Source: Terriglobia bacterium (GTDB taxonomy: Bacteria > Acidobacteriota > Terriglobia > JAIQFV01). Taken from it: a stretch of 35,049 nucleotides of DNA. Positions 3,484 through 35,049 of this stretch are shown here, piece by piece. Within the stretch, counting starts at the first letter, position 1, and each line of letters opens with the position of its first letter. The notes under the pieces were generated by a model that had not been told where the DNA came from, made no database searches, and saw nothing but the letters and a program-made list of their open reading frames with translations. The stretch lies in NCBI GenBank assembly GCA_020073085.1, contig JAIQFV010000033.1, positions 1-35,049 of the forward strand, given 5' to 3'. The position numbers and the translations under genes are program-made.

Positions 3484-5854
3484 ATGACTTTACTCTCATG
3501 GAAGCTCTTTGTCGGGACTGCCTCGAAGAGGTCATTCCTTCTAATGGGGATAATGTTCCTTTTTCATTGTCCTGCTTGCGTCTTATTTGCCCAAGCACCT
3601 CAACCTCAGAGCCCACTGCCGCCGCCATCGGGAAAGATGATGGAAATGGACAATCATTTACATGGGGTGTTTTATTCCGTAAAAGAAGGATGGAAGTCCA
3701 CCCTCGTGCTCAACAATGTCATCGGTAGCACCAGTCGTGCTAAGATTACGCTCTACAACAAGCACGGCCAGGCGTTGTCGGTTCCCGAGATAACCCTCAA
3801 CCCGCATGAAAGTCGATACTTTAGTGTCGCTGAATGGCTGACGGGCGACGACGGGAATATCGATGATTTCTCGGAAGGCAGTGTGGAGGTCTTCTTTCAC
3901 GGCATCAGCATGAGCCTCGGAGCGCAGCTTGTTGTTTCGGACGAGCGCCGAGGCCTCAGCTTCGATGTTCACTTTGACGAAGATATGGATTTTGTCTCTT
4001 CACAGCTCGCTGGTCGTCGTGGGAGCACTCCTCAACAACCATAGCAGGTTCTCATCGACGCTCCGATTTGTTGATTTATCCACCCAGCGCACGACAAGAC
4101 TCCATGGCGCACACCTGCTGATTGGGAAAGCTAGTGCCGCATCAGGACTGCCAAGCAGCATGACGTATGTTCCACGAGCGACTGTCCGCAACACAACCAA
4201 TGGTCCCGTCGAGGTCAAGACCACGGTGCGCTTCGCAACTGTCGACGGGCCACAGTCCGTCGAAATCTCCCCCGTTGTACTGACTTCGAACGAAGTTCGT
4301 GACGTTGACCTGAGTGCTGTCGTTTCTTCTGTCGGAACAAAAGTGCTCGAAGATGCAGGAATTGAGTTCGAACACAATGGCCAGCCCGGGGCGATCATTG
4401 CAGCGGCGGCAAGTGTTGACCAAAGCGGAGGCCGGGTATTTGACGTCCCGGTCAAAGATCCTAAGGGATCTATGTTTGGGGGCGGCAGTTATCCCTGGCG
4501 AATCGATGGCGACAATCGTGCGGTGGTCCATCTGAAGAACATCGACCGGATGACGGACGGAAAGCCCCGCACAGCCATCGTGAAGATCTGGTTTGAGGGG
4601 GGAAGCTATACCCTTCCGGTATTGCTTGCGGATGCCGGTCAAACCGTTTCGATCGACCTGAAGAAATTGAGAGACGATCAGGTTAAAGACGGCGCTGGTC
4701 AAGTCCTTCCGTTGAATGTGAGCAAGGGCCAGCTTGAATGGCACAGCCGAGGGGTGCAAGGGCAGTTTATCGGCCGACTGGTGGAGTACAATCCGACAAC
4801 AGGTATTTCAAGCAGTTTTAGTTGTGGATTCGTTTGCATGTGTGAAACCACTTACTCTTCAGGCTTCGTGGCCCCATCTTCTTTTTCGGGCTTTCCGGGC
4901 GACACGGCAAATTTACAGGCCTTTGAGAACGACTACGATTGCAATGGAACTCCTCTGACTTACAATGTCACTACTCTTGCTCTCTTCACTTCCGGGAATT
5001 CTTCCATTGCCTCGGTCAGTGGCTCGACCGCGACATTAGGGACCTCCGGTGGAACAGCGAGCATTAATGCAAGCTGGGATACAACCGTGGTCTTTGGGGC
5101 GATGACGTGTGACCAAGAACTTAATGTGAATGGATGTCCGGGCTGTGATTCCCAAGCTTTCTTAGGATCGGGATCCATGACGACAACAACGTCTTTGCCA
5201 AAGTTTACTGTTCAATATACCTCCTTTATACCTGTTGACCATATAGATGGACCAAATCCTTGTCCGGATATCGTTGACACATTCGGTAATCCCTATCTCC
5301 CGATCATTTACAAGGGTGACGCATTTCGCGGGACTTTTCGGACTGCAGAGTCGCTGCTCATGATTCCGGACGCAAGGCAAAATTCCGCGCCCTTTAGTGA
5401 TACGGGATTCACAAGAAGCTACAGCTTCGGATCGCCAGCCAGTGGCTCAACGTTGTCCCCGGCAGACGAGGACAATGTCGCAGAGGACTGTAAGCTTTGG
5501 AATAATCAAGGCAAAGCGGATACGGTCGGTTTTGTCATCGACCCAACTTATTCTTTGCACCAGGGAACGGTACATTTTTCAGGATCGAAGGGAGATCCTC
5601 TTGAGCCTCCTTTCATCCAATCCATCGATTGGGACGTTGTCGTAGTAATCAATACGACAAATCCACATTCCCCCACCGCTTCCGTGAGCGCCTTTCATTC
5701 GTGCTATCCAGCTCACCAGATCATAGTGAACGAAACGACAGTCTACCAGTATATCCCACCAAGGAATGATGTTCCCTTCCTGCTCGACTGCCTTTTTTTC
5801 CACAGAAACATAGTTACAGGTCTGGTGGGCCCCACGCCTATTGCGCCGCACTGA
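3484..5854 (+). pseudogene. Frameshifted gene for an exported protein with a bacterial Ig-like C-terminal part
   Basis: Two overlapping frames appear to be one gene. Frame 1 (3484-4044, 186 aa) starts after GAGGAGGATCCTCAATC. It has a long N-terminal hydrophobic signal ending near FAQA, a Pro-rich linker (about residues 40-50) and a beta-rich domain (LHGVFYSVKEGWKSTLVLNN). It then runs into a low-similarity tail and TAG. Frame 2 continues from about 4045 to 5854 with FSSTLRFVDLSTQRTTRLHG, a second beta-rich domain containing VPRATVRNTTNGPVEVKTTV. After that come a Cys-rich patch (CGFVCMC) and a Big-2-like segment (SGNSSIASVSGSTATLGTSG, around 5000-5070), then CPGC. Together they would make a protein of roughly 790 aa. 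The frame change lies between about 4000 and 4045. A sequencing error is possible. The role is unknown; secretion is inferred from the signal. Confidence 0.65.
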
Positions 5855-5872
5855 GGGAATAAAGGAGAGAAT

Positions 5873-7411
5873 ATGGATGGTATTCGAACTGCAAAGACAG
5901 GACGTTTTCTCTTCATCATCGTGGCATTACAACTCTGTCAACTGCATGCTCAAGGAGCAACTCCTCATCCTCAAGCAACACCATCCCTGCGGGGGTTCTT
6001 TCAAGCGCTAGTGGAGCAATACAGCCCTTCCAAGTTACCTAAAGACGAGGACCTAATGAAGGTCACGGAGCAGATCGGGGGCGCACGTCCCGAAGAGATT
6101 TCCCAAGCGTTGCCATCGGTTTTTGCGGCACTTGCGCATCAGGATGACGAAGTGAAGCTTCTTGCCGCTGTAGCTGTCGCTGACATTGGCTTGCGCCCGG
6201 ACAGTGCTGGGCTGTTAAACAATTACATAAACGGCATAGGCAATCTCCTCAACTCGCCCAACGATCGCCTACAGGGTGCCGCCGTACTCATTTTGGGTAC
6301 GCTGAAGCCGGCCCCTCCACCGAAAGTATGGCCGCTTCTGGTGACGTATTTGAACCGAACCGATCGCAACAAACGTATGCAAGCTGCTGCTGTCTTTTAC
6401 CTCGCTCGTCATCCTGAAAAACCAGAAGTCTTAGAGGCAATCAGGCAATTCTTGTCACAGGCATTAGATGCTGAAACTAGAATAGGTACTCTAAATGCGA
6501 TAGGCAATTCGCCGCGACTTCAGGATGCTCAAATCATTCACCTGGTGATTGGGTACTTGAATGATCCCGAAAGTCGGGTCAGACTCACGGCCTTACAAAC
6601 GCTCACGCGCCTGGGGCAGCATGCGTTGTCGGAAGCCGAGCCCGCTTTGCAGAGTTTAGTTGAACGAACCGACGAGCCTGGTGAGGTTAAGGCCTCTGCA
6701 AAGAAGACTCTCCGGGAGCTGGCGCAACGCAGAGTGACCGACCAGCTTGACCGCGAGAGTGCGCAAGATATTTCCAAGGCGTTGCCCTCCATTGTTGTGG
6801 CCCTGGCAAGTCCCGACGATCAGGTAAAAAACGACGCGGCTGATGCATTGAACCACATTGCAGCGCGTCCGGATAGCGCTGCGCTATTGAAGAATTACAT
6901 CAACGACATCGGCAATCTCTTGACATTACCTGACAAGCGTCTGCAGCATATGGGCGCGTTCATGCTTGGGAATCTGAAGCCCGCCCCACCGGCGGAAATC
7001 GTGCCTCCATTGTTGGCATTCCTTAACCGCACCGATCGTGATTTAGAGGAACAGGCCGGTGTCGTCTTTTACTTAGCGCGTTCGGCCTCGGGGGATCCAA
7101 AGGTCGCAGATGGGATTATCCGCTTTTTGTCGCGGCTGTTGGATGTTAGGACCCGCTTAGATGCTCTTGATGGGTTGGCGGCCGCGCCCATCAAGAACCC
7201 TTCCCTCATTGACAGCGTGATTGCATCTTTGCGTGATTCCAATCAGGCGGTCAGACTGGCGGCCGTTCAAACGCTCACACGAATGGGAAAGCAAGCTTTG
7301 TTGCAGGCTGAACCAACTCTGAAAAGAGTGGCAGAGAATACCGATGAGCCTGCCGAAGTGAAGGACGCTGCAAAGAAGGCTCTAGAAGAAATCGGCCCAC
7401 GTAAGAAATGA
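5873..7411 (+). CDS. Exported HEAT-repeat protein with duplicated module, copy A
   Basis: Encodes 512 aa. The start is supported by AAAGGAGAGAAT immediately upstream. Residues 1-25 form a signal-like segment (TGRFLFIIVALQLCQLHAQG). The rest is alpha-helical HEAT/PBS-lyase-like repeats, for instance DDEVKLLAAVAVADIG, ESRVRLTALQTLTRLG and NQAVRLAAVQTLTRMG. The protein is a tandem duplication of a module of about 225 aa: EEISQALPSVFAALAHQDDE in module 1 matches ISKALPSIVVALASPDDQ in module 2, and both carry RPDSA-LL-NYIN-IGNLL, LKPAPP and YLNRTDR/FLNRTDR. It starts 19 bp after the preceding frameshifted gene and is followed 167 bp later by cytochrome copy 2. The same pair order recurs at 12696/13729. 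Such scaffolds usually bind partner proteins; the adjacent cytochrome is the obvious candidate, but this is inferred from position only. Confidence 0.85.
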   Translation: MDGIRTAKTGRFLFIIVALQLCQLHAQGATPHPQATPSLRGFFQALVEQYSPSKLPKDEDLMKVTEQIGGARPEEISQALPSVFAALAHQDDEVKLLAAVAVADIGLRPDSAGLLNNYINGIGNLLNSPNDRLQGAAVLILGTLKPAPPPKVWPLLVTYLNRTDRNKRMQAAAVFYLARHPEKPEVLEAIRQFLSQALDAETRIGTLNAIGNSPRLQDAQIIHLVIGYLNDPESRVRLTALQTLTRLGQHALSEAEPALQSLVERTDEPGEVKASAKKTLRELAQRRVTDQLDRESAQDISKALPSIVVALASPDDQVKNDAADALNHIAARPDSAALLKNYINDIGNLLTLPDKRLQHMGAFMLGNLKPAPPAEIVPPLLAFLNRTDRDLEEQAGVVFYLARSASGDPKVADGIIRFLSRLLDVRTRLDALDGLAAAPIKNPSLIDSVIASLRDSNQAVRLAAVQTLTRMGKQALLQAEPTLKRVAENTDEPAEVKDAAKKALEEIGPRKK

Positions 7412-7577
7412 GAAACACAGAGGCCTATCGGGTCAGAATCGAATCTTTGGCTCGGCGGTTTTGAATTATAGGCCGCTCACAGAATGGCGACCGTTCTGAA
7501 TGCGGCTTTGAACTTATCCCCCAAGAGTTCCAAGGTATTGCCTTTTGAGTCCTCGTGCAGTCAATAGGAGAAAGAAC

Positions 7578-9161
7578 ATGCAGAGCAAAAACGGAGTTCG
7601 TACTTCCAAATGGCTGGGAGTTGCTTGTGTGATGTCTTGGGCGCTTGTTTTTTGTGCCAGCGAGATGTCATCCCAGATGCAAGAGGATAGGAATGTCCAC
7701 GTAGACAAGACACCGGGGGCTTTTCAGAACCGGGACGAAGCAGCGACCTCGACTGCTGCCACTCGCAAGGGCATACCCGGTGAGTCGCCAATGCTGCCTG
7801 GACATGTCAATCAACGCGAGATTGACAAGGGTGAGCTCCGTCTTGAAGACCTCATCGAAGCAGGTCGCTTTCTTTTTGTGACCCCATTCAACGTGCTGGA
7901 TGGGTTTGGTCGTCCGGCCGCCACCGGCGACGGCAAACCGACCAAGCGGGTTCCGGGCTCGGCCCCCTTCATGATCCGCACCTCAGCGCCGGAAACCAAT
8001 TCCTGCGCCGGATGCCACAATCAGCCTGTCCCCGGCGGGGCCGGCGACTTCGTGGCGAATGTTTTTGTCCTGGCGCAGGTCCGCGATCCCGTCACCGACT
8101 CGGTCTCTGCCGAATTCAGTGATGAACGAAATACGCTTGGCATGCACGGGTCAGGGGCCATTGATATGCTCGCACGCGAGATGAGCACGGATCTGATCGG
8201 GATTCGAGAGGCTGCGAAGAACGAAGCGCGAATACGCGGCATCCCCGTCGCGAAGGCCCTTGTGACTAAAGGCGTCAACTTCGGACAGATTATGGCCGGG
8301 CCGGATGGCAGCATTGATACCAGCAAGGTCGAGGGCGTGGATGCCGACTTGATTATCAAACCCTACCACCAAAAAGGGGTGGTGAATTCAGTCCGGGTCT
8401 TTACCGTCAACGCCTTCAACCACCATCATGGGATGGAGGCGGTGGAACGGTTCGGTCGAGATCGGACGGGCGAGGACGATTTCGACGAGGATGGGGTCCC
8501 AGATGAACTGTCAGTGGGAGACATTACCGCGGCCACAATCTTTCAGGTTTCCTTGCCTGTTCCAGGACGGGCCCTGCCTGAAGACCGCGAACTCCGAGAT
8601 TCGGTGAAGCGTGGCGAGACCGCCTTTACCAGGATCGGCTGCGCCGGGTGCCACCGGACGGAGTTGATTCTGAACAATCCGGTTTACAGCGAACCTAATC
8701 CCTTTAATTCTCCAGGCAATTTGCGGCCTCAGGATGTGGCGCGTCCCTTCACTTTCGATTTGACCCGGGAGGGTCCGAGGCCCCACTTGGAGAGGATTTC
8801 CGGAGGTCGAGCGGTGGTCCGCGCCTACACGGATTTGAAGCGCCATAAGATCGCCGACGAAGCAGATCCGTTCTTCGCCAACGAGCGCGTGGTGCAGGGA
8901 GGAGTTCCACTCGATCAATTCATCACCCGCAAGCTTTGGGACGTGGGCAGTTCAGCACCTTATGGGCATCGGGGTGACTTGACCACCATCAGTGAAGCAA
9001 TTCTCCACCACGCCGGGCAGGCGCGTCCCATGCGTGAGAGCTTCGCGGCGCTTCCTGTCGAGGAACAGGCTGACATTGTTGCCTTCCTGAAAACTCTTCA
9101 AGTGCTGCCCGAAGGATCGCCCAATGAAATTAGCATCAAGAGAATCAAGGCCTTCAAATGA
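7578..9161 (+). CDS. Exported di-heme c-type cytochrome / DHOR-type oxidoreductase, copy 2
   Basis: Encodes 527 aa, nearly identical in layout to copy 1: a hydrophobic export signal (GVACVMSWALVFCASEMSSQ), heme motifs CAGCHNQP and CAGCHRTE, a conserved NHHHGMEAVERFGRDRTGED segment and the C-terminal LWDVGSSAPYGHRGDLTTI. The ATG at 7578 is preferred over upstream in-frame codons because AGGAGAAAGAAC lies just before it and because it matches the start of copies 1 and 3. The stop overlaps the ATG of the next gene (ATGA at 9158-9161), so the two are probably translationally coupled. Most differences from copy 1 are conservative or silent, suggesting both copies remained under selection. Peroxidase-type chemistry is inferred from the family. 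Confidence 0.9.
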   Translation: MQSKNGVRTSKWLGVACVMSWALVFCASEMSSQMQEDRNVHVDKTPGAFQNRDEAATSTAATRKGIPGESPMLPGHVNQREIDKGELRLEDLIEAGRFLFVTPFNVLDGFGRPAATGDGKPTKRVPGSAPFMIRTSAPETNSCAGCHNQPVPGGAGDFVANVFVLAQVRDPVTDSVSAEFSDERNTLGMHGSGAIDMLAREMSTDLIGIREAAKNEARIRGIPVAKALVTKGVNFGQIMAGPDGSIDTSKVEGVDADLIIKPYHQKGVVNSVRVFTVNAFNHHHGMEAVERFGRDRTGEDDFDEDGVPDELSVGDITAATIFQVSLPVPGRALPEDRELRDSVKRGETAFTRIGCAGCHRTELILNNPVYSEPNPFNSPGNLRPQDVARPFTFDLTREGPRPHLERISGGRAVVRAYTDLKRHKIADEADPFFANERVVQGGVPLDQFITRKLWDVGSSAPYGHRGDLTTISEAILHHAGQARPMRESFAALPVEEQADIVAFLKTLQVLPEGSPNEISIKRIKAFK

Positions 9162-10795
9162 CAGCAATAGGTGAAACAACTGTTCCCGTCCCAAGATCCA
9201 AGGTGCCCGCATCACTCATTCATTGGGGGATGGAAATTCTCCTATTCACGATCGCGGCTTCGGGAATGGCGACAGCTCAAAGTCAAAACAAAGAGGCAGG
9301 GGACGCCACCTCGGTACTCGCTCGCGAGCAAAAGAGAGAGGCGGAACGAGCCCGGGCGCTGGTCGAGGGGGTGACCCGATTGCCGTTTGAGTATCGCGCA
9401 GACATTCAGCTCACCGCGATCGAGTCAGGACGGACGCGATCTCCTCAATGGGAAGAGAAAATGCTTGACGCGTTGTTTCGAGACGCCGGCCAGGCCCAAT
9501 ATCCTTACAAAGAGAGGGATGCAACCGGTAATAGAGACGCCCGGTCGATGAGCCTGGAGGGGGCCTTCGGCCTGAATCTGGACGGCTTGAGCGTTCGTCT
9601 CAGAGTGATCCGCGCGATGCTCAAAAGAGATCCTAAGAAGGCGCGGCGGCTGCTGAACGAGATTCGACTGGGGATCCCCTCTTCTCCGTGTAGTTCAACC
9701 ATGGTTTATGATGTGTCCGACTATTACAAGGTCTGGACGGAGGTGAGTGCAAGACAGGACAAGAAACAGGAGAAGGTGCAAGCGGACGAGGCCCTTCTTC
9801 TTCAGCAGCACTTTTGGGCATTGACTTCGCCAGTGCAACTGACCCCCCTGGCCCATCTCATAACAGGCACTGAGCGACCTCACGATGAACTTAATTCGCT
9901 GGCCTACCTCTTTGCTCAACAGCTATACCGCCTGCAGGCAACCGACAGGGAACTGGCTTTCATTGACGGCAAGCAAGAGCTCACCAATGCAATCCGGCAG
10001 ATAATGGAAAAGAGCGGTAAGCTGGCGCCTGCCATCGTTGAATTGGTGCGCGCCTACCGTGACTTTCTGGTGAGAAGCACCACCCCCGTTCACTGTGCCG
10101 ACATCACTGCGGACCGGGCACACCTGTTGCTGCAGCTTAACCGAATGCTGGAAGATTTCGCTCATGGAAGCGGAATAGCCGCTCTCAATAAACAGGACCT
10201 TGAGGCGTCCAAAACAGGAGATTCCGCCCAGGTGGAGCTAATTCCTGATGCCGGCAAGATCAGTTCCGGATTGCTGGGTCGCATATCCAAAGTTCTGAAC
10301 GTGGCGTCAGCGATTGACAGTTCGCCATACCCCGGCAATTGGGAGGCAGACGCCGATGAAATGCTCCAACGAATCGTTGCGCTTGATACCTCAAACGGAC
10401 CGTGTCGTATCTGTCTCTTCTACGAAAAGGAGAGTCTGTTTTTCTTCCTGTTCGCATTAATTCCAGGGGGAACAACAAAGGAGCAAATCCTGGAACATTA
10501 CATTTCTTTCCTGGCGGATGACCCTGCTCAGATGGACAGCCCGATCGAGTGGCTGTTTCGTTTTAAGATTCTCCTGAACACCTCCCGTAAACCCTCGAAA
10601 GAACAGCTGGAGAGCATTGCCAAATTCCAGAAAGGAAGAAAACTCGCGGATCTCCCCGGCGGGCCCAGCGAAATGAGCTCCCGGATGTTGGAGATTTTTA
10701 AGCAGCAGAAAAATGAGATCATCCAAGCCTATTTAATGGCAGATGGAACTTTGAAGATTCCCTACGCGTTGCCCCCCTATGTTCGAGCCCAATGA
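9158..10795 (+). CDS. Exported protein of unknown function, coupled to cytochrome copy 2
   Basis: Encodes 545 aa and begins in an ATGA overlap with the cytochrome stop codon. A hydrophobic stretch around residues 22-40 (HWGMEILLFTIAASGMATAQ) suggests an N-terminal signal or anchor with a somewhat long leader; the Met at residue 25 could be the true start of a shorter signal. The rest is rich in charged helices (LAREQKREAERARALVEGV, VRLRVIRAMLKRDPKKARRL), resembling helical-repeat scaffold proteins, with no catalytic motif I can name. A CRIC motif (GPCRICLFYEKE) occurs near residue 418; it lacks the His of a heme site. Copy 1 of the cytochrome has lost this gene apart from its first bases (1955-1989). 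Function is unknown; a role with the cytochrome is suggested only by coupling and co-duplication. Confidence 0.75.
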   Translation: MTAIGETTVPVPRSKVPASLIHWGMEILLFTIAASGMATAQSQNKEAGDATSVLAREQKREAERARALVEGVTRLPFEYRADIQLTAIESGRTRSPQWEEKMLDALFRDAGQAQYPYKERDATGNRDARSMSLEGAFGLNLDGLSVRLRVIRAMLKRDPKKARRLLNEIRLGIPSSPCSSTMVYDVSDYYKVWTEVSARQDKKQEKVQADEALLLQQHFWALTSPVQLTPLAHLITGTERPHDELNSLAYLFAQQLYRLQATDRELAFIDGKQELTNAIRQIMEKSGKLAPAIVELVRAYRDFLVRSTTPVHCADITADRAHLLLQLNRMLEDFAHGSGIAALNKQDLEASKTGDSAQVELIPDAGKISSGLLGRISKVLNVASAIDSSPYPGNWEADADEMLQRIVALDTSNGPCRICLFYEKESLFFFLFALIPGGTTKEQILEHYISFLADDPAQMDSPIEWLFRFKILLNTSRKPSKEQLESIAKFQKGRKLADLPGGPSEMSSRMLEIFKQQKNEIIQAYLMADGTLKIPYALPPYVRAQ

Positions 10796-10810: not shown

Positions 10811-10953
10811 CTGATTGGGGTCACGTCTTCGCCAGCTGTTGCCGAAACAGAATCGCCGGGGCGGCCCGCAACGTGAAATCATTTGATAATGTTGTAGGCC
10901 CGGTGCCCCCACCGGGCGCTCTCAGGGTTGAGCAGCAGCCCGCGAATAATGAC
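10811..10953. repeat. Repeat block E, copy 2
   Basis: Matches 2026-2173 with scattered substitutions and small indels. It follows the intact 545-aa gene and carries the same hairpin (GCCCGGTG-CCC-CACCGGGC) and the same AATAATGAC ending before the MITE-like left end. It shows what originally followed the cytochrome/545-aa gene pair. Confidence 0.8.
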
Positions 10954-10971
10954 GAGTGTCAGATCTCTGCA
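10954..10971. mobile_element. Orphan left end of the MITE-like element
   Basis: Identical to the 18-bp left end of the copy at 2174. The sequence diverges right after it (AACGGCAATTGGCAATG) and no matching right end is found within the next few hundred bases, so this is a truncated copy. Confidence 0.65.
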
Positions 10972-11019
10972 AACGGCAATTGGCAATGAGAAGTTCGCTG
11001 TGTTCAAAATGAAGAAACT

Positions 11020-11131
11020 GATGAATGGGGTCTGGTCTTTCCATTCTCCAGTTGAGATGTGGAGTTCCGGAAGATCCCGGCCAAGTGCTGGTCGGTCTCC
11101 ATTTGGCCTTCGATCCGATGGATGGCCCGGA
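11020..11131. repeat. 112-bp repeat block, copy 1
   Basis: From TGATGAATGGGGTCTGGTC to GATGGATGGCCCGGA this stretch is almost the same as 13971-14082. Both copies lie shortly to the right of a MITE-like sequence. Similarity stops abruptly on the right in both cases. No coding sense is apparent in either strand. Confidence 0.75.
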
Positions 11132-11613
11132 GTAAGGAACCGTTGGCTTTCGTCTTTCCCTTCGGCCTTCACGAGAACCCATCCTATGTCGTAGCTTACT
11201 ACATAGGCTATTGCGCGATCTGTAGCAGGAGCTGGATTGGAATTATTGGACTGACAGGGAACCACTATGAGATGTTAGCCAGTGATGAGAATTCGTTGCC
11301 AAACCAGGGGCTGACGGTGATCCCCCTCGGGAGCGGGAGTCTGGAGTTCGCCCGATTTCTGGCATACGGCAGGTCTTGGGGAGATGCGCACGGACGACTG
11401 AACGCGATAGCCTACTCTTTTGATGGCCGACAGCTTCATAGGATTTGGTCCCGATTGGAGCTCCCTCAAGGGAAGATAACTGTGACTTCAGCCAAAATTA
11501 TCCTCTCGTTTTTGACCTCGCTCCCATCTTCTTCGCGCGAGCGGATACAAGTGTACACCGTAACCCCCGAGGGAATTCAGCTCCAGAATGCCTCCGAACG
11601 ACCTGCAAAGTAA
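11132..11613 (+). pseudogene. Probable 3' fragment of an unidentified gene
   Basis: An open frame ends with TAA at 11611-11613. Its first part (11059-11131) is 112-bp repeat sequence, so only about 160 C-terminal residues look like protein: LAFVFPFGLHENPSYVVAYY, later GRLNAIAYSFDGRQLHRIWS and ERIQVYTVTPEGIQLQ. No ribosome binding site precedes the frame. The repeat junction seems to have removed the 5' end of the gene. The family is not recognised. Confidence 0.5.
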
Positions 11614-12195: not shown

Positions 12196-12695
12196 GTGCT
12201 TGCAGGCGTAGCCCTCGTCCAATTGTTCGGGTTGAGAAAGAATCCGTGCCAGGAGAGGGAGGGTCGCATCTGCAGTTTCCATTCTATCCCTATTGAGCGG
12301 CGTCTTTGGGGGCGGTCTCCGTTTTGAACAAGCCCGTTCCGCTTTCGGTTAAACTCGCCTTGCTTCACATCAGGCCTGACATTGAAAGTAGCTTCGGGCG
12401 GGATCATTAATATCCTATCATCCCACATCGACCTGAAAAATGGATAATGGATTCTGCTGCAAAACCCCCTGTTTGTTGAAACATTCAATTTCTCGGGGGA
12501 TCACAAATGTATCCTGACACGATAGAAATGCATTGTAGGCCTTTTAAACGCGATTTACTGACGGTCTATCAGTCTATACCCCCGAGAAATGACATAGGCT
12601 TCATTCAGAATTGCCTTTTTTTTCATATAAACCCTGTTATTAATCAGACAGGCCCTACGGATGTCCCGTCGCAGTGAGCGAAGAAACGGAACGAG
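12196..12695. other. 500-bp gap without a recognised gene
   Basis: No convincing gene, terminator or repeat is seen. The base composition is more AT-rich towards the right (12,480-12,660), which could hold the promoter for the HEAT-repeat gene at 12696, but no clear -35/-10 pair was found. It shares no similarity with the leader of HEAT copy A. Confidence 0.4.
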
Positions 12696-13562
12696 ATGAT
12701 TAGCATTCGAACGAGAAAGATCGGACGTGTTCTCATCATAATCGTGGCTTTACAGCTTTGCCCACAGCTTACTCAAGCAGTACCTCCTGAGGCTCAAGCG
12801 CCTCGTTCTCTTCAGCAGTTCTTTCAGGGATTAGTGGAGCAATATAGTCCTTCCAAGTTACCTAAAGACGAGGACCTAATGAAGGTCACGGAGCACATCG
12901 CGGACGGACAACCCGAAGAAATTTCCAGAGCCCTGCCCTCGATTGTTGTCGCACTTGCACATCATGATGACAAAATAAAGCTTTATGCCGCTGTAGCTCT
13001 TGGAGACATTGCCTTGCGTCCGGACAGTGGTGAGCTGTTGAAGAAATACCTAAATGCCATAGGCAATCTCTTCAATTCATCCAGCGACCGCTTACAGGGC
13101 TCCGCTGTGCTCATTTTGGGCAGCCTGAAGCCGGCCCCTCCACCGGAGGTATGGCCGCTTCTATTGACGTACCTGAACCGGACGGATCGGGACACACACA
13201 TGCAAGCTGCTGCCATTTTTTACCTCGTCTGGCATTTTCCGCGAAAGCCAGAAGACTTAGACGTGATCGAGCGCTTTCTGTCGCGGCCCTTAGGTGCTGA
13301 AACTAGAATTGGCATTTTGACCGAGTTAGCTGGTTCGCCTCTTAAAGATGTTCGCGTCATTGACATGGTGATTAGATCCCTCGATGACCCTGAGCAGTCG
13401 GTCAGACTCAAGGCCATACAAACTCTCACGCACTTGGGGCAGCATGCGTTGTTGCGGGCGGAACCCGCCATGAAAAGATTGGCAGAGCGCTCCGATGAGC
13501 CTGCCGAAGTGAAGGATGCCGCCCGGAAGGCTCTAAAAGAAATCGGTCCTGGTAAGGATTGA
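12696..13562 (+). CDS. Exported HEAT-repeat protein, single-module copy B
   Basis: Encodes 288 aa. It is a clear paralogue of the 512-aa protein at 5873: the same signal segment (RKIGRVLIIIVALQLC), the shared YSPSKLPKDEDLMKVTE stretch and one HEAT module of about 225 aa. Its N-terminal side resembles module 1 of copy A, while its last ~30 residues (SDEPAEVKDAARKALKEIG) resemble the end of module 2 (TDEPAEVKDAAKKALEEIG). Copy B may therefore be the ancestral form, with copy A expanded, or it may be a recombination-shortened form. The ribosome binding site is weak (GGAACGAG). It is followed 166 bp later by the truncated cytochrome copy 3, and the spacer resembles that between HEAT copy A and cytochrome copy 2. 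Confidence 0.85.
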   Translation: MISIRTRKIGRVLIIIVALQLCPQLTQAVPPEAQAPRSLQQFFQGLVEQYSPSKLPKDEDLMKVTEHIADGQPEEISRALPSIVVALAHHDDKIKLYAAVALGDIALRPDSGELLKKYLNAIGNLFNSSSDRLQGSAVLILGSLKPAPPPEVWPLLLTYLNRTDRDTHMQAAAIFYLVWHFPRKPEDLDVIERFLSRPLGAETRIGILTELAGSPLKDVRVIDMVIRSLDDPEQSVRLKAIQTLTHLGQHALLRAEPAMKRLAERSDEPAEVKDAARKALKEIGPGKD

Positions 13563-13728
13563 GAAGCAAAGCGGTCTATCGGCTCAGAATCGAACCTTTC
13601 GCTTGGCGGTATTAGATTACAGGCTGCTCACATAAAAGCGACCGTACTGAATAGCACTTTGATCTTATTCCCCAGAAGCTCCAAGGTCTTGCCTTTTGAA
13701 TCCTCGTGCAGTCAACAGGAGAAAGAAC

Positions 13729-13858
13729 ATGCAGAGCAAAAATGGAATTCGTACTTTCAAGTGGCCGGCTGTTGCTGGCGTGATGTGTTGGGTGCTTGTT
13801 TTTTGTGCTAGCGAGGTGTCATCCCAGGTGCATGACGATAAGAACGTCCACGTAGACA
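13729..13858 (+). pseudogene. Truncated di-heme cytochrome, copy 3
   Basis: After AGGAGAAAGAAC the ATG at 13729 opens a frame whose first ~43 residues (MQSKNGIRTFKWPAVAGVMC through to VHVDN) match copies 1 and 2. Homology ends at about 13858, where AATAATGAC and then the MITE-like element begin; the frame runs on to a TGA at 13954-13956. No cytochrome sequence resumes beyond the element, so this is a deletion ending at the element rather than a simple insertion. Both heme sites are gone. Confidence 0.85.
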
Positions 13859-13866
13859 ATAATGAC

Positions 13867-13961
13867 GAGTGCCAGATCTCTGCAATCGTTAAATGGTGTT
13901 CCCTCATTGTCAAGACAGCAAACTTTCTTGACCAATTGCCAAATGCAGAGACCTGACACTC
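13867..13961. mobile_element. 95-bp MITE-like element, copy 2
   Basis: Same length and nearly the same sequence as 2174-2268. The ends GAGTGCCAGATCTCTGCA (13867-13884) and TGCAGAGACCTGACACTC (13944-13961) are still almost perfect inverted repeats. Each end has one change from copy 1 (T to C in the left end, T to C in the right end), at positions that do not pair with each other. Confidence 0.8.
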
Positions 13962-13970
13962 GATGAATGG

Positions 13971-14082
13971 GATGAATGGGGTCTGGTCTATCCATTCTCC
14001 AATTGAGATGTGGCATTCCGGAAGATCCCGGCCAAGTGCTGGTCCGTCTCCATTTGGTCTTCGATCCGATGGATGGCCCGGA
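13971..14082. repeat. 112-bp repeat block, copy 2
   Basis: Near-identical to 11020-11131. It lies 10 bp to the right of the MITE-like element and ends at GATGGATGGCCCGGA, after which the leader of the next gene follows. Confidence 0.75.
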
Positions 14083-14167
14083 GACGGTGACATGCTCCAA
14101 GTATTTCGTAACGCTGAAATGGAGATTGGATAGACCCCAATCGCTGATAATCCGTAGGAGAAGGCCG

Positions 14168-15529
14168 ATGAGAAATTGGATTGTGACCATAGCATTCACA
14201 CTACCCACCTTGCTCTTATTCCCTGTGGGCACTCCTGCTCTGAAGATGGGTTCGATTCATGGTGTGGTCGTTGACGAAATAGGGATCCCAGTGAGCAAAG
14301 CAGCGGTTAGCGCCCGGATTATCAATGGTCACATACTTAGCACTCTTATTCGCTATGTTGAAACCGATACTGATGGCCAGTTCTCGCTTGACCGTCTGGA
14401 ATGGGGCGCATATAGGGTCTACGCAAATAAAGAAGACTCTGGCTATCCTGACACCAGTTTCTCGTTCTACAACAAGGGTTTTCCTACAACGGCGACTCTA
14501 ACACCGCAGGCACCGATCGCCGAGGTCCGAATACAGTTTGGTCCGAAGGCTGGGATCTTAACGGGTATGGTAACGGATGCTCTCTCCGGTGCTCCCATTA
14601 ACGCTGGTTTTAAACTCATTCGAACGGGTTCTCCCGATGATTGGATTTCGACCGCGTTACTGGCAAGATATCGTGTTCTGGTGCCCCCGTCCACGGACAT
14701 CACGCTGGAGGTGTCTGCGCATGGTTACAAGACCTGGTACTCCGGCGGCTCTTCCGACCCCTTACGAAGTGTCCCTCTTTGTTTGGAGTCAGGCGTTGAA
14801 ATGAGACTGGATATTCAGTTGCAACCGGAGGATTCCAGTGGAATAAATGCGGTACCAGGACTGACAGCACGACCTCCGGTGTCGGCCAAGGGTGTGCGAC
14901 CTACCATGCCTCCAGCCCAGAACGAAGGCTCCATCCGCGGGACGGTCGTCGACGAAAATGGCATCCTCTTGAGCGGGGCGAAGGTGTTCTTCGAACCTAC
15001 GGATCACCACCAGAGGCACTCGTCAGTTTCCACTGTTGAAACGGATGCTACCGGGCGGTTTGTGATCGATTATTTGGAATGGGGTCAATATCAACTCTAC
15101 GCGAGGAAGGAAGACGCGGGTTATCCGAACACGGTGTTTCCAATTTACAGCAATGGAATTCAAACGAGAGCCGAGATAACATCGCAGGCGCCAAAGGCGG
15201 AGGTAGAGATGCGCATTGGTCCCAAGGCCGGCGTGTTGGCAGGTGTCGTGACGGACGCTAACACCGGTAAACCTGTAGTCGCCGATTTCTTAATCAAGAG
15301 AGTCGCCTCTCCGGACGAGTCGGTTTCACTCCGCTCCTCCGCCCGTTATCGATACCTGGTCCCTCCTTCCACCGACGTAACTCTCGAGGTGTCTGCCCCC
15401 GGCTATAAAACATATTACTACGGCGGTTCTTCGGACCCTTCGCGACGCCTCCCCCTGCGGTTGGAACCAGGGGCCCAAAAGATATTGGATATTAAGTTGG
15501 AGCCTCAGACCGACGGTCCCGCAAAGTAA
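14168..15529 (+). CDS. Exported protein with two tandem carboxypeptidase-regulatory (beta-sandwich) modules
   Basis: Encodes 453 aa. The ATG at 14168 follows AGGAGAAGGCCG; an in-frame upstream extension runs through the 112-bp repeat and is discarded. After a signal (TIAFTLPTLLLFPVGTPA) come two similar modules of about 200 aa each. Each contains a carboxypeptidase-regulatory-like domain (GSIHGVVVDEIGIPVSKAAV; GSIRGTVVDENGILLSGAKV). This is followed by YRVYANKEDSGYP / YQLYARKEDAGYP and a second beta-sandwich domain (GPKAGILTGMVTDALSGAPI / GPKAGVLAGVVTDANTGKPV). The second domain ends with RYRVLVPPSTDITLEVSAHG / RYRYLVPPSTDVTLEVSAPG. Such domains occur in acidobacterial surface and TonB-linked proteins and are thought to be structural or to bind ligands. 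It is probably secreted or anchored at the cell surface; no catalytic residues are seen. Confidence 0.8.
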   Translation: MRNWIVTIAFTLPTLLLFPVGTPALKMGSIHGVVVDEIGIPVSKAAVSARIINGHILSTLIRYVETDTDGQFSLDRLEWGAYRVYANKEDSGYPDTSFSFYNKGFPTTATLTPQAPIAEVRIQFGPKAGILTGMVTDALSGAPINAGFKLIRTGSPDDWISTALLARYRVLVPPSTDITLEVSAHGYKTWYSGGSSDPLRSVPLCLESGVEMRLDIQLQPEDSSGINAVPGLTARPPVSAKGVRPTMPPAQNEGSIRGTVVDENGILLSGAKVFFEPTDHHQRHSSVSTVETDATGRFVIDYLEWGQYQLYARKEDAGYPNTVFPIYSNGIQTRAEITSQAPKAEVEMRIGPKAGVLAGVVTDANTGKPVVADFLIKRVASPDESVSLRSSARYRYLVPPSTDVTLEVSAPGYKTYYYGGSSDPSRRLPLRLEPGAQKILDIKLEPQTDGPAK

Positions 15530-20080: not shown

Positions 20081-20473
20081 TCCATTTATCCCCCGCCAGC
20101 TAAAAGAGAAATTCCAAATCCCAAATTCCAAAATCCAGATAAAACCCAAATTCCAAAGTCCAGACAAAACCACGCTGGCCCGGAGGGACGTCCGAGTGTG
20201 GGGTCACGGGCACTTGGTTCATTTATCCCCCGGTTGCTAAAAGAGAAATTCCAAATCCCAAATCCCAAAATCCAGATAAAATCCAAATCCCAAAATCCAG
20301 ACAAAACCCAAATTCCAAAGTCCAGGCAAAACCACGCTGGCCCGGAGGGACGTCCGAGTGTGGGGTCACGGGCACTTGGTTCATTTATCCCCCGCCAGCT
20401 AAAAGAGAAATTCCAAATCCCAAATTCCATGCAAAACCACGCTGGCCCGGAGGGACGTCCGAGTGTGGGGTCA
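20071..20473. repeat. Three tandem repeat units with internal AAATTCCAAATCCC sub-repeats
   Basis: Three units begin with GGGCACTTG at 20071, 20208 and 20370 and end around GTGTGGGGTCA; their lengths are about 137, 162 and 104 bp. Each contains CATTTATCCCCC, CTAAAAGAGAAATTCCAAAT and CACGCTGGCCCGGAGGGACG. The length differences come from variable numbers of short CCAAAT/CCAGA(T/C)AAAA sub-repeats, as expected from slippage. The first unit contains the stop codon of the M16 gene. Frames running through the repeats have no gene-like composition. Confidence 0.9.
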
Positions 20474-22975: not shown

Positions 22976-23143
22976 TACCGACTTCAGTCGGTTACCTCGT
23001 TCTGCCGTGATCCCTCCGTAGTACCGACTTTAGTCGGCCATGTCGTGTTCCCGTAGTGCTGACTTCAGTCGGTCATGTTGTATTTCCGTAGTACCGACTT
23101 CAGTCGGTCATGTTGTATTTCCGTAGTGCCGACTTTAGTCGGT
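22972..23143. repeat. Five palindromic repeats with 35-bp period
   Basis: Units starting with GTAGT at 22972, 23018, 23053, 23088 and 23123 carry the palindrome ACCGACTTCAGTCGGT or a close variant (ACTTTAGTC, GCTGACTTC). Start-to-start spacing is 46, then 35, 35 and 35 bp, with a semi-conserved spacer (CATGTTGTATTTCC). Changes in the palindrome are concentrated in its loop and first bases. The first unit overlaps the end of murB. Each unit could form a small hairpin in RNA or DNA. The unit is far too regular and palindromic for a CRISPR with unique spacers. Confidence 0.9.
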
Positions 23144-23585
23144 CCCTCCTATTCAATCAAACCTTCCCGCTCGAAACCCACGGCTGGTCTCCACCGGAAC
23201 CTCTCGTCAATTTTCCATTTTGATTTTTCTTTCCGATTTGCTAAAGTCGGTGGGCTTGTTTGTGGGGATAACGGCACATTTTCAACACAAGGAATTTTCC
23301 AACATCATCTTCCCCCCACAGGGCTCTTCCTTTCGGCAGGCTGCATTGCTCGCTGGATTCCCTCGTGGGTACACAATGGACTGCTCTCAGAAGGCCCGAA
23401 ACCTGAGACCTCAGGGTTGCTTTACCTTTTTCGAGATGTGCCCCTGTTCTTCTTAACGCGTTCGAGGGTGAGCGACCGTCGCGGGGGGGCTTCATACTTC
23501 GAGGACATCTTCTCGTCCTTGACTGCGGGATCATTTAAAAAACCATTTTCGAACCGAGTGCATCGAGGGAGGGTGGAGAACCACT
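23144..23585. other. 440-bp gap without a recognised gene
   Basis: Open frames cross this region but have no recognisable protein character and no ribosome binding sites. Its right end holds the ribosome binding site for the TPR gene (GGTGGAGAACCACT). Confidence 0.4.
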
Positions 23586-28798: not shown

Positions 28799-30003
28799 GT
28801 GTAGTGTCCAAGAATTAGCTGGACAGTTTTTTCTTTGCCTTTCTGCGGCGCGGCTGGGTACAGCCGGGTTGAATTTGTTCGAGCGTCTGACGACAACGTG
28901 AGAGCTTGTTTTGGATCGATTCGACCGTGGCCGTCCAAACAAAGGGCTTGGGGTTCTCATTCCACGCCGCCAGAAACTCGGAGATGGCCTTTTGCAAATC
29001 TTTCACGCTTCCAAACGAACCGCGCCGAATTCTCTTGGAGGTCAGTTCCCCAAACCAGCGCTCCACCAGATTGAGCCAACTGGAACTGGTCGGCACAAAA
29101 TGAGGGAGGAAGCGAGGATGTCGTTTCATCCAGGCTTGCACGCTGGGATGTTTGTGAGTGCCATAGTTGTCCATCACCAGGTGCAAGGGCACCTCGCCGC
29201 GAAACTCTTGGTCCAGACGGCGCAAAAATCTCAGAAACTCCTGGTGGCGGTGTCGCTGGTAGCATTGGCCGATGACTTGGCCCTGCAGCACTTCCAAGGC
29301 TGCAAACAGCGTCGTCGTGCCATGGCGCTTGTAGTCGTGAGTCAGCGTGCCACAGCGCCCCTTCTTCAGAGGCAAGCCCGGTTGCGTGCGGTCCAGCGCC
29401 TGAATCTGGCTCTTTTCGTCCACACAAATCACCATGGCCTGTTGCGGTGGGTTCAAATACAGACCCACCACATCCGTGAGCTTTTCCAAAAACTTGGGAT
29501 CGCGCGACAGCTTGAAGCTCTTGACCCGATGCGGTTTGAGATTGTGGCTGCGCCAGATGGTGCTGATCGTGGACTTGCTCACCTCCTGGCGCTCCGCCAT
29601 CAGCCGGCAACTCCATTGCGTCATGCCGTGGGGTTTGGTCTCGAGCGTCGCCGCCACGATGGCTTTTATCTTTTCCGGTCCCAAGAGAGGCTTGCGCCCG
29701 CGACCCGGCGCCACTTCCCACAAACTCTCCGTCCCTTGCTCGGCAAAGCGGCGGCGCCACAACATCACCGTCTTGCGATTGATCTCCAGTGCTCGGGCGA
29801 TGGCACTGTCGGACTGACCGGCTGCCGCCGCCAAAACGATGCGGCTTCGAAGCGCCACTTGCTGGGGGGTTCCATACGCTGCCAGCCACTGCTGAATCTG
29901 TTCCTGATCCCCGGGGTTCAAACATACAGTAGGGGTGGTTGGGCACATGATTGAGTTTAACTTGAACCATATTATCTGTCCAGTTATTTGTTGGACACTA
30001 CAC
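28799..30003. mobile_element. Intact IS630-family insertion sequence
   Basis: The element is 1,205 bp long with 28-bp inverted ends (28799-28826 and 29976-30003) beginning GTGTAGTGTCC and ending CTGGACAG at the inner side, differing at three central positions. It is flanked on both sides by TA (28797-28798 and 30004-30005), the target duplication typical of IS630/Tc1-mariner elements. One transposase gene fills it. Intact ends and an intact reading frame suggest recent arrival and possible activity. Confidence 0.92.
28815..29948 (-). CDS. IS630-family transposase
   Basis: Encodes 377 aa. The N-terminal half holds helix-turn-helix segments (SDSAIARALEINRKTVMLWR; SKSTISTIWRSHNLKPHRVK). The catalytic domain carries a DDE triad visible as CVDEKSQIQALDRTQP (D177), LHLVMDNYGTHKHP (D260) and WLNLVERWFGELT (E297), with the VDEKSQ and ERWF signatures characteristic of the family. 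It catalyses cut-and-paste transposition into TA. The basic C-terminus (QPRRRKAKKKLSS) runs to within 16 bp of the left end, overlapping the inverted repeat. The + strand frame opposite it is a shadow. Confidence 0.93.
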   Translation of the reverse strand: MCPTTPTVCLNPGDQEQIQQWLAAYGTPQQVALRSRIVLAAAAGQSDSAIARALEINRKTVMLWRRRFAEQGTESLWEVAPGRGRKPLLGPEKIKAIVAATLETKPHGMTQWSCRLMAERQEVSKSTISTIWRSHNLKPHRVKSFKLSRDPKFLEKLTDVVGLYLNPPQQAMVICVDEKSQIQALDRTQPGLPLKKGRCGTLTHDYKRHGTTTLFAALEVLQGQVIGQCYQRHRHQEFLRFLRRLDQEFRGEVPLHLVMDNYGTHKHPSVQAWMKRHPRFLPHFVPTSSSWLNLVERWFGELTSKRIRRGSFGSVKDLQKAISEFLAAWNENPKPFVWTATVESIQNKLSRCRQTLEQIQPGCTQPRRRKAKKKLSS

Positions 30004-30900: not shown

Positions 30901-31029
30901 GCTTTGGTAGCCCCGCCTGGCGCTTTTTGCCCGGCGGGGGCTGGTGCCGGCAGTGTGCACAAAATCACCTTTTCTGCACCTCTCATCCACAAGCCCCCGC
31001 CACACACCCCGTGGCGGGGCTACCAAAGC
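30901..31029. repeat. Nested inverted repeat between xth and the nuclease gene
   Basis: GCTTTGGTAGCCCCGCC (30901-30917) is matched exactly by GGCGGGGCTACCAAAGC (31013-31029). Inside, GGCGGGGGCT (30933-30942) pairs with AGCCCCCGCC (30992-31001). The left half is the same element as the 84-bp tandem repeats at 34773-34985, so this is one direct and one inverted copy facing each other. Confidence 0.85.
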
Positions 31030-34739: not shown

Positions 34740-34771
34740 CCGCCTCCCGGATTCATCCGGGAGGCGGTTTT
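34740..34771 (+). terminator. Rho-independent terminator of the nuclease gene
   Basis: A perfect 12-bp GC-rich stem CCGCCTCCCGGA / TCCGGGAGGCGG (34740-34751 with 34756-34767) has loop TTCA and is followed by TTTT (34768-34771). Confidence 0.9.
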
Positions 34772-34772
34772 G

Positions 34773-34985
34773 CTTTGGTAGCCCCGCCGGGCGTTCTTGG
34801 CCTGGCGGGGGCTGGTGCCCGAGGATCTCAGGAAATTACCACCTCTGCCGCGTTTGCTTTGGTAGCCTCGCCGGGCGTTCTTGGCCCGGCGGGGGCTGGT
34901 GCCTGCGGATTGCAAGAAATTACCAGCTCTGCCGCGTTTGTTTTGGTAGCCTCGCCGGGCGTTCTTGGCCCGGCGGGGGCTGCGT
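34773..34985. repeat. Three tandem 84-bp repeats
   Basis: GGTAGCC(C/T)CGCCGGGCG occurs at 34777, 34861 and 34945, exactly 84 bp apart. Each unit holds a hairpin formed by CCGCCGGGC...GGC(C/T)(C/T)GGCGGGG and a spacer ending CTCTGCCGCG. The third unit breaks off at GGGGGCTGCG. The same sequence begins the nested inverted repeat at 30901. No coding function is apparent. Confidence 0.9.
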
Positions 34986-35049
34986 GCCCATGATGTATAT
35001 TGCGGCCAGTTCCGTTTCACACCACTGTCTCTTCTCATCGCTGAAGGAG

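Follow-up and report, generated by a model that had tools for sequence, protein, structure and literature searches.

Do genes that are repeatedly copied together also work together? This question is raised by a locus on contig JAIQFV010000033.1, which belongs to an Acidobacteriota (Terriglobia) genome (5.79 Mb, 68 contigs; labelled G000) and was analyzed over its entire length of 35,049 nucleotides (the window). A first-pass annotation had described three neighboring genes here, encoding an exported HEAT-repeat protein, a DHOR-type di-heme cytochrome and an exported 545-aa protein (P545), the last two overlapping by ATGA. Their coordinates were confirmed and HEAT and cytochrome were matched to Pfam families, but the conclusion that the three products act together because they were duplicated together did not survive. 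The region is a single segment, composed of the 3' end of a fourth gene (P39), HEAT, cytochrome, P545 and flanking DNA, which is present in three partly broken copies A, B and C, all in forward orientation. A three-part system is not supported, and we consider a duplicated, decaying locus to be the probable best explanation as a whole.

Only copy B contains the full set, with HEAT (5873-7411, 512 aa), cytochrome (7578-9161, 527 aa, ATG at 7578) and P545 (9158-10795, overlapping the cytochrome stop), together with the 3' part of the P39 gene and a 3' flank that is common to copy A (10812-10943). Copy A (354-2268) consists of an intact cytochrome reading frame (375-1964, 529 aa, 92% amino acid identity to copy B), about 34 bp of the P545 5' end up to position 1989, a deletion and the 3' flank, which starts at 2027; this remnant and the flank occupy 1965-2164. 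Copy C (12560-13859) is made up of a 118-bp P39 remnant (12560-12677), a half-length HEAT gene (12696-13562, 288 aa), a 166-bp spacer and a cytochrome pseudogene reduced to the first 44 codons (13729-13860). Self-BLAST revealed 90% identity between 354-1989 and 7556-9192, 74% between 5737-6692 and 12560-13515 and 72% between 6765-7708 and 12916-13859, and in a self-comparison the P545 flank of copy A (2027-2203) matched 10812-10983. The duplications are thus real, with a similarity far beyond chance, and the earlier observation was confirmed in part. Copied DNA is indeed present where a second HEAT-cytochrome pair had been reported (12696-13858), but the cytochrome ends there after 44 codons and the HEAT protein has only 288 aa. 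At 375-2173, where the cytochrome with remnants of the third gene had been reported, the cytochrome, the short P545 5' end and the 3' flank were found, but the sequence from 2165 to 2268 is a repeated short element. The reported similarity of the 166-167-bp spacers held up in a proper alignment: both are 166 bp long (7412-7577 and 13563-13728) and identical at 137 of 166 positions without a gap, whereas about 300 random segments of the window averaged 35% identity and did not exceed 49%. As the coding match of HEAT B and C amounts to 621/817, the spacer is no less similar than the coding parts, which fits copied DNA.

The copied segment begins within the gene upstream of HEAT (5737-5854 versus 12560-12677). 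The duplicated DNA therefore holds the cut-off, non-functional 3' end of P39, which indicates that linkage and not function explains the co-duplication. Furthermore, the copies are bounded by two short inverted-repeat elements. Element 1 (97-104 bp, with the inverted ends GAGTGTCAGATCTCTGCA and TGCAGAGATCTGACACTC) is located at the 3' end of all three copies: it closes copy A (2165-2268), closes copy B with its truncated first part (10944-10983) and interrupts the cytochrome of copy C (13858-13961, 95% identity to 2165-2268), which stops at the start of the element. Element 2 (about 170-180 bp, also with inverted ends) comes next in copy C (13962-14140) and has a truncated counterpart in copy B (11020-11132, 95% identity to 13971-14083); element 2 is 99% identical to 72515-72680 on contig C7 of a sister genome from the same genus (G396) and 84% identical to sequences on contigs C26 and C4 of the own genome. 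Both elements are dispersed, with roughly ten copies each in the own and in the sister genome, and they share short length, inverted ends, multiple copies and the lack of a gene of their own with miniature inverted-repeat transposable elements. In the sister genome, element 2 is immediately followed by a second cytochrome gene, from which precisely the first 44 codons are missing. The breakpoints probably arose by recombination or insertion at these dispersed elements. According to this model, segmental duplication would have produced three copies of one chromosomal segment, which were later trimmed, with the elements setting the breakpoints and the genes copied together since they were adjacent.

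Two neighboring genes also touch the elements. Element 1 of copy A abuts the 3' remnant of a TonB-dependent receptor gene (2279-2650), which is cut at the element and lacks its 5' part; the receptor reading frame of the sister genome comprises at least 570 aa. The open reading frame called at 13976-15529 starts inside element 2. Its real start is probably the ATG at 14168, which is followed by a signal-peptide-like stretch, and it encodes a carboxypeptidase-regulatory-domain protein.

If the three proteins cooperated, homologs of HEAT and P545 were expected beside DHOR cytochromes in other genomes. This expectation was disappointed: at 49 other cytochrome loci, which come from Acidobacteriota, Proteobacteria, Planctomycetota, Verrucomicrobiota and other groups, neither a HEAT nor a P545 homolog lies nearby. 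In the sister genome, contig C7 (86,006 bp) carries cytochrome and P545 side by side, and HEAT is unlinked in the interior of contig C96 (136 kb), which places it at least about 80 kb away from the two other genes. Moreover, three HEAT-bearing genomes (G429, G187 and G289) lack a cytochrome of this family, and no further HEAT copy of this locus was found in a search of the own genome. According to a HEAT_2 family search of 31 genomes, each contains many HEAT proteins; among the matches listed, none is near the cytochrome, which is supporting evidence only. The HEAT protein (Pfam HEAT_2, E 3e-27) is more likely associated with the P39 surface protein encoded upstream, since in three of five clear relatives outside the own genome (G396, G429 with a distance of 4 bp, and G172) the P39 C-terminal domain is encoded directly upstream of HEAT, an adjacency with a chance of about 1e-8 or less in a simple model. 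HEAT B contains two internal 224-residue units, and HEAT C equals HEAT B minus one of them (672 bp). The sister protein has the two-unit length, so HEAT C has probably lost one unit.

In the window, the P39-type gene for an exported protein (3484-5854) is split into two overlapping frames (3484-4044 and about 4007-5854). Its homologs in other Acidobacteriota form one reading frame, and the tblastn match leaves frame 1 and continues in frame 2 at about 4007-4014. The gene may have been disrupted naturally, or the assembly may be in error at this point. At its C-terminus, P39 has a domain with the pattern CYPAH...VY.Y.P...N...CL. A P39-type gene was also found directly downstream of the cytochrome in three Acidobacteriota, namely G331 (L055), a member of the Bryobacteraceae (L117) and one of the Acidobacteriaceae (L124), and in the sister genome it is one small gene away from the cytochrome. 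The chance of the P39-cytochrome adjacency is 2e-6 to 3e-4; the P39 figures presuppose one to five P39 genes in every 4,000, placed independently. In five further loci (L107, L109, L111, L112 and L115; one checked against Pfam) the DHOR-like cytochrome adjoins an FG-GAP/UnbV (CRTAC1-like) gene, and in several of these the two genes overlap or are a few bases apart.

To follow the history of the copies, substitution rates were calculated according to Nei-Gojobori. The ratio of nonsynonymous to synonymous substitutions (dN/dS) of the cytochrome is 0.07-0.15 overall, 0.12 between copies A and B and lowest outside the signal region (0.07-0.09 without the first 65 codons), and the cytochrome is under purifying selection. 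The corresponding values are 0.30 for HEAT B and C and 0.27 for P545 between own and sister genome, the latter also indicating purifying selection. Among the products, the cytochrome has the strongest evidence of being maintained as a gene. The synonymous divergence (dS) is 0.33 for cytochrome A and B and 0.70 for HEAT B and C, and P545 of the own and the sister genome differs by 0.14; these values do not agree with one simple date of duplication. For the cytochrome, the value may have been reduced by gene conversion: the informative sites of four cytochrome genes are spread 20/20/14 over the three topologies, and the mosaic sites form 17 runs versus 37 expected, a value that was not reached in any of 20,000 shuffles and points to conversion between the copies.

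Turning to the cytochrome itself, we assign it to a DHOR-like subfamily of the di-heme cytochrome c peroxidase (CCP)/MauG superfamily and predict a periplasmic enzyme. The peroxidase-type reading of the first-pass annotation is upheld at the level of this superfamily by three lines of evidence. The DHOR profile (PF06537) scored 27.8 bits (copy B) and 31.7 bits against a curated cut-off of 22 bits, and it matched 31 of 32 relatives at E values up to 0.01; because the best stretch covers only the profile end (positions 434-499 of 499) and not the full length, we use the term DHOR-like. In a profile search, the protein matched bacterial CCPs with an E value of 1e-7. Finally, the AlphaFold2 model (predicted template modeling score, pTM, 0.81) aligned by VIA-align with CCP, MauG and MbnH entries at Z 16.4-14.6 and 3.4-5.2 A over about 230-270 residues, in agreement with the two-domain CCP-type fold. 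The best match was hydrazine synthase gamma (Z 16.4, 5.2 A over 245 residues), MauG reached Z 15.7 (3.9 A over 260 residues), and the best Foldseek E value was 3.9e-4. RoxA-type rubber oxygenases were not among the fold matches, and the MauG equivalog profile (TIGR03791) scored 18.2 bits versus a cut-off of 443.85.

Both CXXCH motifs (residues 143-147 and 355-359) are present in all 32 aligned relatives, and a DxDxDGxxxE calcium-type loop (301-310) as well as H283, H423, W454 and H464 are invariant in this alignment. In CCPs, the axial Met of the heme at which electrons enter lies in the segment AVAVM. Opposite this segment aligns His478, which occurs in 31 of 31 covered sequences, and the alignment suggests that the second ligand of the C-terminal heme is probably this residue, whereas known enzymes have Met or Tyr. 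By analogy, the protein most likely works in the manner of di-heme peroxidases, with bis-His coordination of the C-terminal heme; electrons would enter at this heme, and the N-terminal heme would be the site of peroxide reduction.

P545 is probably exported and has no family in Pfam, NCBIfam or PHROG, and no credible relative in the PDB (best E 0.04, designed helical proteins). An all-helical structure is predicted with low confidence, as the AlphaFold model from a two-sequence alignment has a mean predicted local distance difference test score (pLDDT) of only 37.6. A 93% identical ortholog (locus L094) was found, and C178 and C313 are invariant among 13 relatives. None of 16 P545 loci detected in genome searches, one of them a distant paralog in the own genome, has a cytochrome of this family nearby. 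In seven of about 15 loci (L075, L076, L078, L080, L081, L083 and L087), a gene for a membrane-anchored TlpA/AhpC-type thioredoxin is located directly upstream on the same strand, with a chance below 1e-12 in a simple model. Thioredoxin and P545 are thus a recurrent, uncharacterized pair in Acidobacteriota, and the partner hints at a redox role of P545.

How do other explanations compare with a segment copied by linkage? The idea that HEAT, cytochrome and P545 form one cassette, in which a peroxidase is held by a periplasmic helical scaffold and was amplified since its parts cooperate, could appeal to one full set, one copy of HEAT and spacer with the start of the cytochrome and one cytochrome copy with P545 flanks, as well as to the overlap of cytochrome and P545 and the presence of both in the sister genome. 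But two of the three copies are broken, HEAT is unlinked within the genus, HEAT-bearing genomes lack the cytochrome and all 49 other cytochrome loci lack both presumed partners; for HEAT the cassette is largely refuted, and we regard it as highly improbable. Cytochrome and P545, which are the only pair kept, and only within the genus, deserve more consideration. It is possible, albeit doubtful, that they alone form a functional pair, in which a helical periplasmic P545 with a conserved Cys pair would supply the di-heme enzyme with electrons or with a protein substrate; the adjacency in both genomes, the invariant cysteines and the thioredoxin gene upstream of P545 relatives are in line with this assumption. 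However, copy A kept the cytochrome and lost P545, no P545 relative accompanies a cytochrome of this family outside the genus, and the sister genome lacks the ATGA overlap, as the cytochrome ends at 7593 there and the P545 frame opens at 7603. P545 may nevertheless act with the cytochrome within the genus.

Other alternatives concern the origin of the copies. Plain tandem duplication with unequal crossing-over, followed by chance insertion of the elements near the ends, would account for the difference of exactly one 224-residue unit between HEAT B and C and is in line with the evident gene conversion, but element 1 is found at the end of each of the three copies and element 2 marks the cytochrome truncation point in both genomes, so that we consider this rather unlikely. 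An assembly artefact of the metagenome bin might be suspected from a single contig of a metagenome-assembled genome (MAG) that ends just before copy A. This was rejected as hardly credible, because the copies diverge by 8-36% and show purifying selection and gene conversion, and an independent MAG of the genus likewise has a pair of cytochrome copies and shares the junction with element 2. Our preferred reading, a duplicated and decaying locus with a peroxidase-type cytochrome, has points against it as well. The contig starts 374 bp before copy A, and MAG contig ends may conceal a HEAT copy upstream of it; the adjacency of cytochrome and P545 in both genomes and the selection on P545 indicate that part of the set may cooperate; and the causal role of the elements is putative. 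In addition, the N-terminal heme region of the cytochrome model (residues 113-177) is of low confidence, and the peroxidase activity is a prediction for a superfamily that also includes non-peroxidases. Promoter and terminator scans yielded no more hits than shuffled sequences and have no bearing either way on co-transcription, and an Rfam search gave no match.

A comparison with described systems puts the locus in context. The cytochrome resembles the CCP/MauG superfamily (PF03150, PF06537 DHOR; MauG, MbnH, BthA) in its two CXXCH hemes, the CCP-type fold over about 245-260 residues, the C-terminal APYxHxG segment and the DHOR score above cut-off. It differs in an additional inserted helix and hairpin (about 192-256), for which the CCP matches do not account, and in the invariant DxDxDGxxxE loop and the His in place of the axial Met/Tyr; its scores also fall far short of the equivalog cut-offs for MauG and MbnH. 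BthA is a di-heme enzyme whose pairing with a neighbor of unknown role, a putative phosphatase, is conserved across Burkholderia (PMC6405878); here, the only genus-conserved partner of the cytochrome is P545. In the literature we found no HEAT/di-heme system, and only a paralog study of Ca. Solibacter usitatus Ellin6076 is related. The expanded paralogs of this strain include 'FOG:HEAT repeat' and 'Cytochrome c peroxidase' and were attributed to duplication and repeat- or element-mediated rearrangement (PMC3174227). They are mostly less than 50% identical (PMC3174227), whereas the set described here is more recent, local and decaying. The dispersed multi-copy elements of about 100 and 180 bp at the breakpoints resemble miniature inverted-repeat transposable elements, with no partner transposase identified for them.

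The contig contains further repeats and a mobile gene. Tandem arrays were detected at 20116-20429 (162-bp units), 23015-23144 (35-bp units) and 34769-34989 (84-bp units), with a piece of the 84-bp unit again at 30901-30977, and a transposase with DDE_3 and HTH domains is encoded on the minus strand at 28815-29948.

Taken together, local segmental duplication in combination with short repeats can mimic a conserved gene cassette, and co-duplication alone is therefore no proof of shared function. The P39-cytochrome and P39-HEAT adjacencies, in three other Acidobacteriota each, and the thioredoxin-P545 pairing would also suit an undescribed cell-surface redox system of Acidobacteriota, in which the di-heme enzyme would oxidize or modify P39 in a MauG-like manner with HEAT and P545 as helpers, the window being a scrambled instance, but we consider such a system improbable. 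The cytochrome adds an ordinary new member to a known superfamily, and the other linkages are modest new leads. The linkages of P39 with HEAT, of P39 with the cytochrome, of the TlpA-like thioredoxin with P545 and of FG-GAP/UnbV with the cytochrome offer a first handle on an uncharacterized and widespread di-heme subfamily.

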